From Chloroflexota bacterium (GTDB lineage Bacteria; Chloroflexota; Anaerolineae; Anaerolineales; Villigracilaceae), in assembly GCA_021414245.1 (NCBI GenBank), contig JAIOOU010000004.1:496001-560000 (forward strand): a stretch of DNA of 64,000 nt, in the 5' to 3' direction. A model generated the notes under the pieces. It had not been told where the DNA came from. It searched no databases and saw nothing but the letters and a program-made list of their open reading frames with translations. A program made the position numbers and the translations under genes. Of this stretch, positions 56,479 to 60,278 are shown in pieces (within the stretch, counting starts at the first letter, position 1; each line of letters opens with the position of its first letter).

Positions 56479-56507
56479 CCTGAAAAATTATCTTGGAGGA
56501 GTTGTGC

Positions 56508-57272
56508 ATGTATAGTTATCCACTCAAGTTTGAGTTTCCAATGATCAGCCTGGGCCGCCAGGTGGATGTAAAAAACGGGGATGGCGGTTTTATCATGCGC
56601 GTTACCGATCCCTTCATTTCCTTCAAGGATTCAATGACCGCCATCAACGGCAAGGGGACGGCGGTTTATCAGATCAACGGGGATTCCAGTTTTCGTTTCC
56701 TGTTCCAGTTCGCGAGCATGTCCACCGATTGGACCATTCAAACCATGGACGGCAAACCGCTCGCCTTTATTCGCAATTATTTCGCCCGCATGGAGGAATT
56801 TGAATCCATTGGGGTCAAGAAACCCTCCTCGATCAATCCGGACGGCACACCCTCCCTGGGCGGGATCGCCGGCCAGTTCGCCGCGAACATGATCAACCAG
56901 ACCGTCAGCCGCAATGTGCCTGGCAGGCTCGTGTACCAGATCCTCGACAAGGAAGGCGGTAATGTGCTTGGCTGGATCGTTCCCTCACGTGGCACAGGTT
57001 GGTTTGACTTCCTGCCTTACTCCACACGCATCAAGATTTTGAACATTCCCTTTGCTGCGCGGGCTTATGCCCCATCCTATGAATTTAAACTCGGCAATCT
57101 TTACGGACCCACCGCGCTCAAACTGCAAAAGCAGCGTGATCTGTTTGTGGACCGTTATTCGCTTGAGAAGACCGCCGAATTAAGCGATGTCGATGAACGC
57201 TGGGCCGTTCCCGCCCTGACCCTGGTGACCATGTTCGAACGACAGCGAGTGAAGGAAATGGCGGATTGGTAA
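56508..57272 (+). CDS. LURP-one/scramblase-like beta-barrel protein
   Basis: 254 residues. Starts MYSYPLKFEF at 56508, nine bases after GGAGG. The all-beta region (VYQINGDSSFRFLFQF, WTIQTMDGKPLAF, VYQILDKEGGNVLGWIV) resembles the Tubby/LURP-one/phospholipid scramblase fold. Function in bacteria is unknown; membrane or lipid binding is an inference. It ends in a perfect palindromic terminator that also serves the opposite-strand GHKL gene. Confidence 0.68.
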   Translation: MYSYPLKFEFPMISLGRQVDVKNGDGGFIMRVTDPFISFKDSMTAINGKGTAVYQINGDSSFRFLFQFASMSTDWTIQTMDGKPLAFIRNYFARMEEFESIGVKKPSSINPDGTPSLGGIAGQFAANMINQTVSRNVPGRLVYQILDKEGGNVLGWIVPSRGTGWFDFLPYSTRIKILNIPFAARAYAPSYEFKLGNLYGPTALKLQKQRDLFVDRYSLEKTAELSDVDERWAVPALTLVTMFERQRVKEMADW

Positions 57273-57284
57273 GATGCCTGCGAC

Positions 57285-57318
57285 AAAAAGAGGCCGTCCA
57301 ATTGGACGGCCTCTTTTT
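57285..57318. terminator. Perfect 34-bp palindrome, bidirectional terminator
   Basis: No-mismatch inverted repeat AAAAAGAGGCCGTCCAA plus its complement, no loop, flanked by A5/T5. Confidence 0.92.
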
Positions 57319-57320
57319 GT

Positions 57321-59216
57321 TTATTCCAGGGTCACGATGTATTCGTGGATGAGATGGGCATAGCGGTTCTGCAAACGAATGAAATGGTTATGGATCGCGT
57401 CCGCTTCCGCGCCATCCGGGGCCAGAAATCTGCCGCGCTCCACGCCGCTGCGGGCGATCTCACGACATACGGCTTCTGTGATCAGTTCGGCCAACAACAC
57501 CTGTCCCTGGACTGTCGTATCCAACCGGTTTTGTTCATCGAGGTAGATCTTCACAGACGGGGCGGCTGTGGCGATCACAATGCTGGAATTTACCCGGTCA
57601 AAATAGACCCGCTGTCTGGGATCGGTCCTGTCGTCAAAGTGGATGTCGGTGAACAGGGCATTGCTGCTTCTGGAGGGAGCCGCGCTCATGGTCTCTTTTT
57701 TTGAGCGTACCTGCACCGAGGCCTGTGCCCTGTATTTGCCAATGTAAGCTGTCACGATCCCCTCGCCGCCCACCTGTCTGCCTTCGACTTTGATGCGGGC
57801 CAGCCCGATCCTGGGGTCTGTCTTATGGACTTGAAGCACTGCCTGCTGATTCAGGATGATGATCTCGGGGCTGTTTGAGATCACACTCACGGTGGCGCCC
57901 ACCCGCACTTTGTCCTTCAACTCCACCAACAGGGTCAGGGTGATCGTTTGCGCTGTTTGTACATAGGCGCGTTCCGGCAGAAATGCAATTCCCGAAGGCG
58001 GCAGGTCGATTTGTTTTTGATGCTCTTCGTCCCTTTTGTCGCTCAGCTCGGTCAACGCGATCGTGTTCAGTTCATGCAGGGCATGGTCGATCTTCTGGCG
58101 CAGTTTCTTGTCGAGGTGGGTTTGTTCTTCATGAATGGCATGTTTGCGTTCCGCTTCGATCAGCGGTTCAAGTTTGCCTTCCACCGCCAGTTTCAAGGCC
58201 TTCGCAAATGGGTGGGTCCAATTGATTCCGTCGCGGGTCGCCGTCAGGACCGGTTCATCGTTCTTCAACAGGTCATGCAGATAATCGCACTGGATCGATC
58301 CGTAGAAATAACCCGCGTAGGGGTCGTTCTCGAACTTGAGCATGGTTAGCGAAATGACCGTTGCCTTGCTGATCACCAGCAGGCCGCCGTCCGCATAGTC
58401 GCCCTCCTCGCCGCGGGTCGATAACTGGATTCCCGACCGGTAGACTTCCAGCTTGGCCGTGGCGGGATACCCGGCGATCTTGAACCTCTCGTTAAGGACC
58501 TTCTCGCCTCGCGGTGACTTGTAGCTGAGTACGTGTTCATGACGGATCTTCCCCGCTGTGGGAATGTCCCTCAACAGGATCCTGCGCTTTGGGTTGCTCA
58601 TGATCGGACGCAGCTCAAAATGCCTTTGCAGGTAGTTGCGGAAGTTGTCGAACTGGGGCACTTTCACATCCTCACGCGAGACGATGATTTCGATGATGGT
58701 ACCGTTGCCTTCGGGTATCTCGTATTTTTCCCGCAGCGCGGCGGTGGCGCGCGCAGGCTCTTCCAGCTCAAAGGTGGGGATCCCGTTTTTCAAAAGCAGG
58801 GAGCACGAATAAAAATGGGTCCCTTTGAAGGAACGCACATATCCGTATCCCAGACCGAAAATCGAATCCTTCAGCCCGCGGCCCCACATTCCGCGTACAT
58901 GTTTGTCCTCCTTCAATCCGCTGGTGGCTTCGCCATAGGTGCCGACCACCTTGTCCATGCGAATGTCGGTCATGCCTTCGGCATGGTCACGGACACGGAT
59001 CAGGGAATTCTTATGCTTTCGTTGAATGTCGATCACGATCTCGCCCCTGGCCCGTTGACCGGCCTGTTCGAGGCGTGAATAACTGTCGTTGCAGTTGGTG
59101 ATGATCTCCACCAGCGCGCGCAGCACGTCCTTGCGAATGGCCTGGTCCGCCTGTTGGAGCGCGACGCGGTCAGCGTACTGCAATTTGCGGCTGCTCACCA
59201 TGGATTTGCTTTTCAT
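57321..59216 (-). CDS. GHKL (Hsp90/MutL-like) ATPase with C-terminal beta and helical domains
   Basis: 631 residues. A GHKL ATPase fold at the N-terminus: N-box ALVEIITNCNDS (E37, N41), G1-like RVRDHAEGM (D77, G81) and G2-like MWGRGLKD (110-117), the signatures of ATP binding in MutL, Hsp90 and MORC. Downstream are a transducer-like region, a long helical arm rich in Glu/Lys (about 355-415), an immunoglobulin-like beta segment (about 440-510) and a helical C-terminal domain (SIVIATAAPSVKIYL). No nuclease motif. Its start overlaps the partner gene's stop by 4 bp (ATGA). Likely an ATP-driven clamp; DNA repair, chromatin-like or defence roles are all open. Confidence 0.82.
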   Translation of the reverse strand: MKSKSMVSSRKLQYADRVALQQADQAIRKDVLRALVEIITNCNDSYSRLEQAGQRARGEIVIDIQRKHKNSLIRVRDHAEGMTDIRMDKVVGTYGEATSGLKEDKHVRGMWGRGLKDSIFGLGYGYVRSFKGTHFYSCSLLLKNGIPTFELEEPARATAALREKYEIPEGNGTIIEIIVSREDVKVPQFDNFRNYLQRHFELRPIMSNPKRRILLRDIPTAGKIRHEHVLSYKSPRGEKVLNERFKIAGYPATAKLEVYRSGIQLSTRGEEGDYADGGLLVISKATVISLTMLKFENDPYAGYFYGSIQCDYLHDLLKNDEPVLTATRDGINWTHPFAKALKLAVEGKLEPLIEAERKHAIHEEQTHLDKKLRQKIDHALHELNTIALTELSDKRDEEHQKQIDLPPSGIAFLPERAYVQTAQTITLTLLVELKDKVRVGATVSVISNSPEIIILNQQAVLQVHKTDPRIGLARIKVEGRQVGGEGIVTAYIGKYRAQASVQVRSKKETMSAAPSRSSNALFTDIHFDDRTDPRQRVYFDRVNSSIVIATAAPSVKIYLDEQNRLDTTVQGQVLLAELITEAVCREIARSGVERGRFLAPDGAEADAIHNHFIRLQNRYAHLIHEYIVTLE

Positions 59217-60154
59217 TCTTTTTCCAGTTTCCGGGCCGGTTTCTTTAATCGCTTTTGTTGCGGCACCAGTAAATATGAAAATCTGTATTCACAATGATTT
59301 AAGAACATTAACAGGTCCTGACGGCTGTGGATATCTGCATATCCCTTGAATAAGGCCAGGTTTTTTAGGAGCGTTTCGCGGGATGACTCCATCGTGCACA
59401 GCAACAGGCTTCTGAAATCGAACTCGCCGATCTTCGAGTTCCTTCCATTCTTTTTGTAGTGCAGGTAGGCATCCGACCTTTCCATGGCCTTGACGAACTT
59501 TCCCGCGCGGACCTTTTCCTCCTTTGTCGTCATTGCGGGAGCGGTGCGGACAGGTTCCGCCGGTTTTTGTTGTACTTTATTTGCCTGAACCGGGAGCCGT
59601 ACCCTCCGCGTTTTAATGGGACCGGCCTTGGGTGGGTGCGTCTTTATTACCGGAAGGAGAGCGGGCGTTGTTCTGCCTGCCTGTGGAGTGGGCGCCTTTT
59701 TTGCGCGTTTCGCGGATGGATGTTTTTCCACCATTAAGACGGGGTCCCTGTGGGTCTGAACCGGGCGCCTTTGAATTTTCTTTTTGTGTACGGGCGGTTT
59801 TTTGATTTCGGTGGACCTGGGTTTTTCCACACCCAATTTCTTCGCCACTCTTTCGGCAAATCTTGCGCCCCTGGCGGTTAATTTGAATCCTTCGCTGGCA
59901 TTGCCCGACAGATAGCCTTTGCTGCGGCATTCGGTCCAGCGCCTGCTGACCACAGCCGAATCGGGCCAGTGCGGATAATTCCGCATGGAGAAGCGTCTCG
60001 GAAATAAAAGGAAACAGGCCGAGATGACATCCTCGGAAGTGATCTCCCTTCCGTCCTGTTGGAAATGGTGGATGGAATAAACGACCAGATCGTTCAAGGC
60101 GATCTTTTGATACAACTCGGGATTGAATTTTGGCAGGCCCCGCTTATGCAGCAT
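59213..60154 (-). CDS. Winged-helix partner protein of the GHKL ATPase
   Basis: 313 residues. The N-terminal part (about 1-95) reads like a winged-helix fold (KIALNDLVVYSIHHFQQ, ITSEDVISACFLLFPRRF, WPDSAVVSRRWTECRSKGYL, SEGFKLTARG). A long Pro/Lys-rich disordered linker follows (about 100-200), then a helical C-terminus. It probably binds DNA or the ATPase. I choose ATG 60154, preceded by GGAG six bases upstream, over the ATG at 60166, which lacks a ribosome site. ATGA overlap with the ATPase implies a fixed stoichiometry. No similar gene is present elsewhere in the window. Confidence 0.75.
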   Translation of the reverse strand: MLHKRGLPKFNPELYQKIALNDLVVYSIHHFQQDGREITSEDVISACFLLFPRRFSMRNYPHWPDSAVVSRRWTECRSKGYLSGNASEGFKLTARGARFAERVAKKLGVEKPRSTEIKKPPVHKKKIQRRPVQTHRDPVLMVEKHPSAKRAKKAPTPQAGRTTPALLPVIKTHPPKAGPIKTRRVRLPVQANKVQQKPAEPVRTAPAMTTKEEKVRAGKFVKAMERSDAYLHYKKNGRNSKIGEFDFRSLLLCTMESSRETLLKNLALFKGYADIHSRQDLLMFLNHCEYRFSYLLVPQQKRLKKPARKLEKE

Positions 60155-60278
60155 CCCTGTCTCCATTGTATATATTTATCCCGGTGGTATTTTTGATAAA
60201 GCCTGATATTCCATCAAGGCTGGAGGAGTTGATCGGCATGATGCGGTGACTCACCTGATTGAATGATTTTTTATTCTG

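Follow-up and report, generated by a model that had tools for sequence, protein, structure and literature searches.

An adjacent gene pair for a MORC-like GHKL ATPase and a winged-helix protein in Chloroflexota: a possible ATP-gated DNA clamp

The gene pair and its flanks

The window (the whole 64,000-nucleotide stretch of a Chloroflexota contig that was analysed) holds two adjoining minus-strand genes, read directly as ORFs, for an ATPase and a winged-helix (wHTH) partner (Table 1). The first-pass annotation had placed a two-gene module at 57321-60154, joined by an ATGA overlap. The module and its four-base overlap are real and its ATPase end is correct, but the partner starts at 60166, 60154 being the next in-frame ATG. 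Partner and ATPase also overlap by four bases at loci L045 and L046; in most group A relatives a short intergenic gap takes the place of the overlap.

The module had also been described as bracketed by terminators. Directly 3' of the ATPase stop lies a strong hairpin, common to the convergent gene, with folding energies of -30.9 kcal/mol (z -8.7) on the minus strand and -32.1 kcal/mol (z -9.4) on the other, whereas the 112-nt gap ahead of the partner shows no notable fold (z 0.02); the module is therefore bracketed on one side only. A consensus terminator scan listed none at either module edge, this hairpin included.

Table 1. Features of the gene pair, in window coordinates
Feature	Position	Strand	Description	Basis
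Partner gene	59213..60166	-	317 aa: wHTH, basic linker, helical C-terminal domain	ORF, homologues beside ATPase, model
Winged-helix domain	59825..60121	-	partner residues 16-114	AlphaFold2 model, pLDDT mostly above 90; PDB winged helices
Disordered basic K/P/A-rich linker	59525..59824	-	partner residues 115-214	pLDDT mostly 50-66; length, composition
Conserved helical domain, proposed docking domain	59267..59524	-	partner residues 215-300	model pLDDT above 90; alignments
ATGA overlap, partner stop / ATPase start	59213..59216	-	four bases	sequence
GHKL ATPase gene	57321..59216	-	631 aa	ORF; HATPase_c_3 below cut-off; model
GHKL (Bergerat) ATP-binding domain	58677..59180	-	about residues 13-180	motif conservation, fold matches
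S5-type transducer	58146..58676	-	about residues 181-357, invariant R328	fold matches over 13-357
Long helix	58044..58211	-	residues 336-391	model
Beta domain, Ig-like by inference	57705..57989	-	residues 410-504	model
C-terminal alpha/beta domain	57336..57659	-	residues 520-627, invariant A576-E577	model, conservation
Terminator-like hairpin	57283..57320	both (.)	common to two convergent transcripts	fold energies, z

Architecture of the two proteins

The conservation of the ATPase was assessed in alignment A5, which comprises 40 sequences (the window included) from groups A and B and outliers, with groups C and D left out. E37, N41, D44, D77, G81, R108, G109, R113, G114 and K116 are kept in all 40, and G112, G172 and T173 in 39. 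The N, G1, G2 and G3 motifs with the general-base glutamate are thus found in 40/40 or 39/40 sequences, which together with the fold identifies a GHKL ATPase, and the ATP-lid motifs noted at first pass are invariant or near-invariant. The Pfam model HATPase_c_3 scores 19.7 bits against the window ATPase, below its cut-off of 25.

The predicted structure of the full-length ATPase, modelled as a single chain, has a pLDDT of 82.5. In a comparison of full-chain models with the PDB, which barely covered the ATPase C-terminal domain and the partner helical domain, ATPase residues 13-357 matched MORC3 (Z 20.2), MORC2 with DNA (Z 20.2), Hsp90 (about 20) and TopoVI-B (18.2-18.6). This fold at Z 18-20, plus the basic R328 in 40/40 sequences of A5, places the protein among ATPases with a GHKL + S5 core; G330 is likewise kept in 40/40. 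TopoVI-B is also the top Foldseek match of the ATPase model, and whole-chain superposition on it is poor (TM about 0.37). The C-terminus had been called unlike that of MutL, Hsp90 or histidine kinases. This holds after about residue 390 but not for residues 13-357, which match an Hsp90-type core, and the model accordingly places the unusual part of the ATPase only beyond about residue 390. The C-terminal domain could be catalytic. Group B ATPases carry an insert after the beta domain in the alignment, which may be read as a second Ig-like beta domain.

The model bears out the earlier division of the partner into an N-terminal wHTH (16-114), a linker (about 118-214) and a helical end (215-300). 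The modelled wHTH matches solved winged helices in the PDB at Z about 8-10. Linker length in relatives ranges from 11 to 378 aa, and linkers of at least 40 aa (n = 29) contain on average 28% K+R, 6% D+E, 14% P and 30% A+V+T. Pfam gave no match for the partner, and a Toprim domain was not recognised. The ATPase is under purifying selection, with dN of 0.07-0.23 against a near-saturated dS of 1.5-3.0 in the seven of nine comparisons that yielded dS, and the partner evolves faster (dN 0.32-0.60 within group A).

Distribution, setting and deeper relatives

Among 152 genomes of one Chloroflexota family, the ATPase was found in 50 and the partner in 54, no genome had the ATPase without the partner, and the two were adjacent in 48 of the 50 ATPase-bearing genomes. 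In a class sample of 298 genomes, a GHKL gene lay beside 11 of 12 partner loci, the twelfth being cut by a contig end. The samples reach as far as the phylum Chloroflexota; partner searches used profile A7, which held two group C partners. Matches in one contig scan were all of Chloroflexota type. The fixed GHKL-wHTH pairing proposed at first pass, which is unnamed in the family libraries, is therefore borne out by near-constant adjacency. The same annotation had named an ATPase of a well-characterised family, for example a MutL paralogue, with a never-adjacent partner as the outcome that would speak against it; no MutL match was found and the partner is nearly always adjacent.

In the window subgroup the pair is mostly single-copy and its chromosomal setting largely conserved. 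In three relatives without the pair the two flanking genes abut, so its genes are either both there or both missing. Four neighbours of the window pair are identifiable, all ordinary chromosomal genes and none of them defence genes. Plasmid collections yielded no relative for group A, its outlier or group B. Phage records, queried with ATPases of groups A, B and C, gave none either, and four viral-contig scans, each with two short peptide patterns, no confirmed relative. Plasmid searches with group C and D ATPases returned one distant record each, one of them a divergent pair on a plasmid of the alphaproteobacterium Ensifer, whose proteins as queries matched no other plasmid. Movement as a unit, as had been suggested, is half borne out: certain genomes lack the pair as a unit, yet those that carry it mostly have it in the same chromosomal setting. 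A mobile cassette was rejected, given this conserved setting and the lack of relatives in the plasmid (groups A and B), phage (groups A to C) and viral-contig searches, and in the window lineage the pair looks like a resident but dispensable chromosomal locus.

Deeper relatives mostly retain the pair, often with an additional gene encoding HARE-HTH, sigma-4 or RNA-polymerase alpha-CTD domains. We read this extra protein as an added DNA or promoter reader, for which the basic tail of the window partner may substitute. Partner profile A4, limited to groups A and B plus outliers, matched group C partners at 99.2% and group D partners at 98.9% in profile comparison. Group D and group A ATPases were not joined (profile comparison probability 7%), and group D ATPases are tied to the family through the partner only.

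Some ATPases have no detected partner. L110, a group A-like ATPase in genome G842, has none adjoining it, and the sole partner match in that genome adjoins a second, group B ATPase. No neighbouring partner was detected for the group C-like GHKL proteins L116 and L126 or for the distant GHKL protein L098. L115 (genome G263) was dropped as unrelated, being HtpG/Hsp90 by sequence, and L093 (an ATPase fragment only) and L097 (a partner beside a short ATPase frame) were set aside.

Known systems and possible function

Neither window protein reaches any cut-off in the curated family libraries searched. NCBIfam gave no MutL match up to E 10 for the ATPase, PADLOC-DB returned no family up to E 10 for either protein, and PHROGs matches were at chance level. 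A MutL paralogue, a histidine kinase and a known defence system were rejected, as no model matched the pair above cut-off. The pair is not named in the literature searched, which consisted mainly of freely readable papers and no bioRxiv preprints.

The ATPase shares the GHKL + S5 core and motif order of MORC ATPases. The available part of the source defines MORCs by a GhXhhpXXRhl motif in the S5 domain and finds prokaryotic MORCs mostly in restriction/modification (RM) operons (PMC2292703). The motif arginine occurs in 0/40 sequences of A5: its position, residue 286 when counted by eye from the invariant G278, is occupied by T, A, M, G, I or V, and the ATPase is therefore paraMORC-like and not a MORC. 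The pair further differs from MORC in its wHTH partner gene and its beta plus alpha/beta C-terminus.

With paraMORC1-5, as far as the source describes them, the pair has in common an N-terminal GHKL + S5 core, a family-specific C-terminal extension, patchy spread and some RM neighbours. The paraMORC associations described in the part of the source available do not include a wHTH partner (PMC2292703). The same source gives as the paraMORC2 hallmark an ExxxH motif conserved towards the C-terminal end of S5; no conserved ExxxH is seen here, and the window's E363-H367 falls within the long helix and has a non-conserved His. None of the named C-terminal domains of paraMORC3-4 was recognised by Pfam in the window ATPase. 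The PD-(D/E)XK nuclease (DUF4263) of paraMORC3/Shedu type I-D had no Pfam match up to E 10 in a full-length search, and the paraMORC4 TIR domain none in the pair or in five scanned neighbours of it in the window. VcSduA, the Shedu type I-D protein formerly called paraMORC3, resembles the pair in its GHKL ATPase and clamp-like middle domain but, in the portion of the paper available, is a single protein with a DUF4263 nuclease (PMC12137116), for which the window pair has no match.

TopoVI-B has the same succession of GHKL, transducer and long helix. In contrast to topoisomerase VI, the ATPase model has no clear H2TH insert and the partner no recognised Toprim; its model is a wHTH, linker and helices, not a Toprim A subunit.

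Our preferred reading, to which we give a little less than an even chance, is that the two proteins work as a single unit, in which an ATP-gated DNA clamp built like MORC, Hsp90 and TopoVI-B is joined by a DNA-reading subunit. The ATPase would dimerise on ATP and close around DNA, and the helical end of the partner may dock on the ATPase. The wHTH and basic tail would hold DNA, the winged-helix partner thereby bringing the clamp to it, and ATP turnover would reshape or compact the bound DNA or block access to it. No nuclease is recognised in either protein, which makes cutting less likely than silencing or compaction. Against this clamp, the fold match would fit a MORC-like clamp and an Hsp90-like or regulatory use alike, the whole-chain superposition on TopoVI-B is poor, ATPases without a detected partner exist, the partner evolves faster than the ATPase, and the C-terminal domain could be catalytic. 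Nearby RM genes in some relatives, together with the MZA likeness of groups C and D, point towards defence.

A stand-alone anti-phage or anti-plasmid system, in which the wHTH partner would detect foreign or modified DNA, with the GHKL ATPase as effector or switch, is rather unlikely. GHKL + S5 ATPases of the paraMORC kind are tied to restriction systems in the available part of one source (PMC2292703), and VcSduA, a GHKL-nuclease protein, is anti-phage according to that of another (PMC12137116). L091, L092, L125 and L127 have RM or methylase genes close by, Pfam identified PIN genes next to two group D members, and the empty sites show the pair to be dispensable. However, the tested proteins of the window and group B pairs had no PADLOC match, and the matches of groups C and D were weak and partial. 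The first-pass suggestion of a conflict system finds no support in the window pair, in view of this absence, the lack of plasmid, phage or viral relatives of the window subgroup and its ordinary neighbours; proximity to defence genes is seen for some deeper relatives but not among the identifiable neighbours in the window. The subgroup, moreover, evolves slowly, keeps its synteny for the most part and mostly occurs in single copy.

Quite unlikely is a regulator, with the wHTH protein as a transcription factor that the ATPase would switch, on the pattern of CapK/CapS or MZA-type sigma-linked operons. The wHTH partner and the sigma-4 and alpha-CTD third genes of relatives would suit it, and CapK/CapS is a published adjacent GHKL + wHTH pair. 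In the available part of that report, CapK is an HTH-STAS-GHKL, anti-sigma-kinase-like protein and CapS a STAS-wHTH repressor (PMC13373217), whereas the ATPase here has a GHKL + S5 core and neither window protein matched STAS in Pfam up to E 10. No constant adjacent operon to control is seen in the window lineage. Groups C and D resemble the anti-phage system MZA (MzaA-E, with MzaA sigma-like and MzaB an ATPase) in having a sigma-4 protein and a GHKL ATPase in an operon-like run; their NCBIfam and PADLOC matches are partial and below cut-off (MzaB 20.4 of 850 bits, MzaA 41.5 of 800), and the window pair has none in either. MZA is not known to include a wHTH partner.

An RM accessory subunit in the deeper groups, left as a relic in the window lineage, is very unlikely: of the 16 loci that do not belong to group A, 4 have RM or methylase genes nearby (a raw count) and the group C ATPase has a weak match to BbrUII/HgiDII restriction enzymes (66.9 bits, cut-off 550), but no RM gene was recognised among the neighbours scanned at the other 12, and strong purifying selection speaks against a relic.

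MORC proteins compact DNA in human cells. An extension of the clamp reading that we regard as unlikely is that the pair is a bacterial counterpart of chromatin compaction, a MORC-like clamp loaded by a winged-helix subunit with a histone H1-like tail, silencing or compacting DNA without cutting it. It would be the minimal resident form of an unnamed sigma-4/alpha-CTD/HARE + wHTH + GHKL family in Chloroflexota, with a divergent alphaproteobacterial pair.

Bacterial MORC relatives were predicted in 2008, and as late as 2021 their biochemistry and molecular workings were described as poorly understood (PMC8011034). The pair is a compact two-protein MORC-like member in which neither a nuclease nor a helicase is recognised; it is strongly selected and is present or absent as a unit. 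It links MORC-like ATPases with sigma-4/HARE DNA readers, its partner suggests how such a clamp gets aimed at DNA, and it offers a small expressible system for testing DNA entrapment and compaction by prokaryotic MORC-like ATPases.

The gene pair and its products

The gene for the winged-helix (wHTH) partner lies upstream of the ATPase gene on the same strand and overlaps it by four bases (see table). Pfam matched the ATPase only below threshold, to the two GHKL models HATPase_c_3 (19.7 bits, cut-off 25) and HATPase_c (14.4 bits, cut-off 26.4), and gave no match to the partner. Neither window protein was matched in PADLOC or NCBIfam, and PHROGs matches to the pair were at chance level. The first-pass annotation placed the module between terminators; a strong hairpin, shared with the convergent gene, lies directly 3' of the ATPase stop, but none was detected before the partner gene. 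Homologues of the 259-aa ORF next to the pair were found in only four of the 38 group A loci (close relatives of the window pair), at varying positions, and this ORF is therefore not part of the module.

Coordinates of the pair and of genes in or near related loci (L); positions without a locus refer to the window
Feature	Coordinates	Strand	Remark
Partner gene	60166..59213	minus	317-aa ORF
ATPase gene	59216..57321	minus	631-aa ORF
259-aa ORF	56493-57272		between pair and YdcZ-type transporter gene; no Pfam match
Group A-like ATPase	L110:8363-10282		
Large protein	L112:5319-7364		after group B ATPase, four-base overlap; SEC-C motif (Pfam)
Large protein	L091:9165-11639		after group B ATPase; similar by eye to that of L112
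Alpha-CTD/sigma-type gene	L125:3738-7682		upstream of group C pair; broken by transposase-type frames
Methylase	L092:8909-9916		near Chloroflexota group B pair; best PADLOC model PDLC03323
Methylase	L127:629-1882		near Ensifer pair; best PADLOC model PDLC03323
PIN-domain gene	L121:8271-8973		confirmed by Pfam; AbrB/MazE-like gene alongside
PIN-domain gene	L122:7571-7969		confirmed by Pfam
PIN-domain gene	L123:8382-8792		
PIN-domain gene	L124:4495-5197		AbrB/MazE-like gene alongside

Residues 13-357 of the predicted ATPase model (mean pLDDT 82.5) match mouse MORC3, human MORC2 with DNA, Hsp90s, and topoisomerase VI-B (Z 18-20), with an rmsd of about 3.3-4.4 Å for matches near this core and larger values where they stretch over the whole chain. 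Beyond the core, the chain continues as a helix of 56 residues, followed by a beta and then an alpha/beta domain. Among 40 aligned ATPases (window, groups A and B, and outliers), the GHKL residues are present in 40 or 39 sequences, and R328 of the S5 part, which by likeness to Hsp90 we take to be the transducer's catalytic basic residue, is present in all. The arginine of MORC's own motif occurs in none of the 40, excluding a MORC identity.

The partner model is confident for a wHTH at residues 16-114 (best Z 10.2 against the PDB) and for a helical domain, with a stretch of low confidence between them. Linker boundaries could be set for 35 of 36 partners (the window and 35 of the 38 group A loci, L010, L032, and L039 being excluded as cut or broken), with a median of 175 aa and a range of 11-378. 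The 29 linkers of at least 40 aa average 28% K+R, 14% P, 30% A+V+T, and 6% D+E. Composition is conserved while length and sequence are not, a pattern shared by histone H1-like tails.

Co-occurrence and place in the chromosome

Scanning genome contigs with the ATPase gave the 38 group A loci (68-87% identity), all titled as Chloroflexi, Chloroflexota, or Anaerolineae-type or by the genera Herpetosiphon, Brevefilum, and Anaerolinea, which belong to the Chloroflexota. A tblastn search located the partner at 37 of these loci; in the remaining one, L032, the contig stops 58 bases before the ATPase. Within the window's family, the ATPase occurs in 50 of 152 genomes (40 of the 57 listed for the window's genus) and the partner in 54, and no genome has the ATPase without the partner. 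In 48 of the 50, the two genes share a strand and a contig and are no more than 400 nt apart, the exceptions being G432, where the pieces are on two contigs, and G434, slightly over the limit. The fixed pairing proposed in the first-pass annotation is borne out as a conserved pair under selection, neither member of which the libraries name. The four partner-only genomes hold a fragment at a contig edge (G427), a group C pair (G325), or group D pairs (G233 and G337). In the class sample of 298 genomes, a single-sequence search found the ATPase in eight and a profile search found the partner in 12, with a GHKL gene adjoining in 11 and the twelfth (G005) cut by its contig. Sixteen of 400 genomes were positive in a phylum profile search, three of them weak or fragmentary. 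In G390, the ATPase lies in several frames.

At least one gene of the window neighbourhood recurs in 30 of the 38 group A loci, several of the other eight being short. These genes are a YdcZ-type transporter (27 loci), an X-family DNA polymerase (19), and a methyltransferase (13), all named by Pfam, and a 511-aa membrane-type protein with no Pfam match (19). The polymerase was searched for in nine genus members lacking the ATPase and two controls having it and was found in six and two, respectively; loci were examined in five of the six and in one control. In L142, L143, and L146, which lack the pair, the 511-aa and transporter genes abut, their alignments ending 12-14 nt from each other; the window has the pair and one other ORF, 3.85 kb in all, at this point. 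Within the stretch examined, the 511-aa gene is missing from L144 and the transporter from L145. The control L147 has the pair, with the transporter on its opposite side. G427 carries the partner fragment and polymerase on one contig. Given the conserved neighbours and the three abutting flanks, the pair seems to be an ancestral unit that can be dispensed with and that has a fixed position, subject to some local rearrangement.

Deeper relatives and their neighbours

Close to group A stand L045/L046 (about 30% identity, a 200-aa partner without linker, four-base overlap) and a further outlier, L089. Group B ATPases (744-791 aa; L090, L091, L092, L094, L111, and L112) carry an extra insert, and all six loci have the partner. 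A HARE-HTH gene lies upstream in four; its score passes the Pfam cut-off in L111 and falls short of it (20.7-23.2 of 25.9 bits) in L090, L094, and L112. A search of the window's genome found none. The large protein of L112 and L091 is a possible fourth component. Group C ATPases (545-573 aa; L113, L124, L125, L139, and L140) also have the partner, and family models assign RNA-polymerase alpha-CTD and sigma-4 domains to the upstream gene in L113 and L124, its counterparts in L139 and L140 being placed by position and likeness. In L125, the pair and an adjoining BsuBI/PstI-like methylase-nuclease fusion keep open frames. Group D ATPases (597-626 aa; L120-L123) have the partner and a downstream gene, which bears sigma-4 and HARE domains in L121 and L123.

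A partner profile built solely from groups A and B matched C partners at 99.2% and D partners at 98.9%. By profile comparison, group C ATPases join the family (99.2%) and group D ATPases do not (7%). Counting against fixed pairing, no adjacent partner was detected for the group C-like ATPases of L116 and L126, the group A-like ATPase of L110, or the distant ATPase of L098. At another site (L111), the genome of L110 has a full group B triad that could supply its partner.

Outside the phylum, an 800-aa protein of an Ensifer adhaerens conjugative plasmid matches the group D ATPase profile (47.1 bits, E 5e-13, 6002 ORFs), and its gene overlaps by four bases that of a 229-aa protein. Partner profiles detect the latter weakly but distinctly (C/D, 24.7 bits, E 6e-6; A/B, 19.4 bits, E 2e-4, with 7.0 for its next non-family ORF). 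As HHalign gives 89% with C/D together and 2-51% with single groups, its homology to the partner is only probable.

Outside group A, four of the 16 loci (L091, L092, L125, and L127) have restriction/modification or methylase genes nearby, a raw count over some of the neighbours that includes any background rate. PIN-domain genes lie close to group C/D pairs in four loci.

Related systems and a possible mechanism

The window pair is a variant of the general kind represented by the paraMORC radiation, as outlined by Iyer et al. 2008 (PMC2292703), and is distinguished by its wHTH partner. CapK/CapS (PMC13373217) is an analogue and, judged by its domains, no relative. Defence can be a role of a GHKL protein of this wider kind, as VcSduA shows (PMC12137116), and the NCBIfam name of MzaB is anti-phage system ATPase. 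HARE-HTH is described in PMC10853773 as recognising modified bases, a property that would fit a third subunit that reads DNA.

The two genes form a real, conserved pair without a name in the libraries. In the simplest model they would encode an ATP-gated clamp: a GHKL dimer would shut on ATP, closure would pass through the S5 part and the long helix into the beta and C-terminal domains, and DNA would be delivered by the wHTH partner. The data establish the fold, the motifs, the pairing, and selection, whereas dimerisation, docking, DNA entrapment, and the cellular role are inferred. As no nuclease was recognised in the pair, it is likelier to compact or silence DNA or to control access to it than to cleave it.
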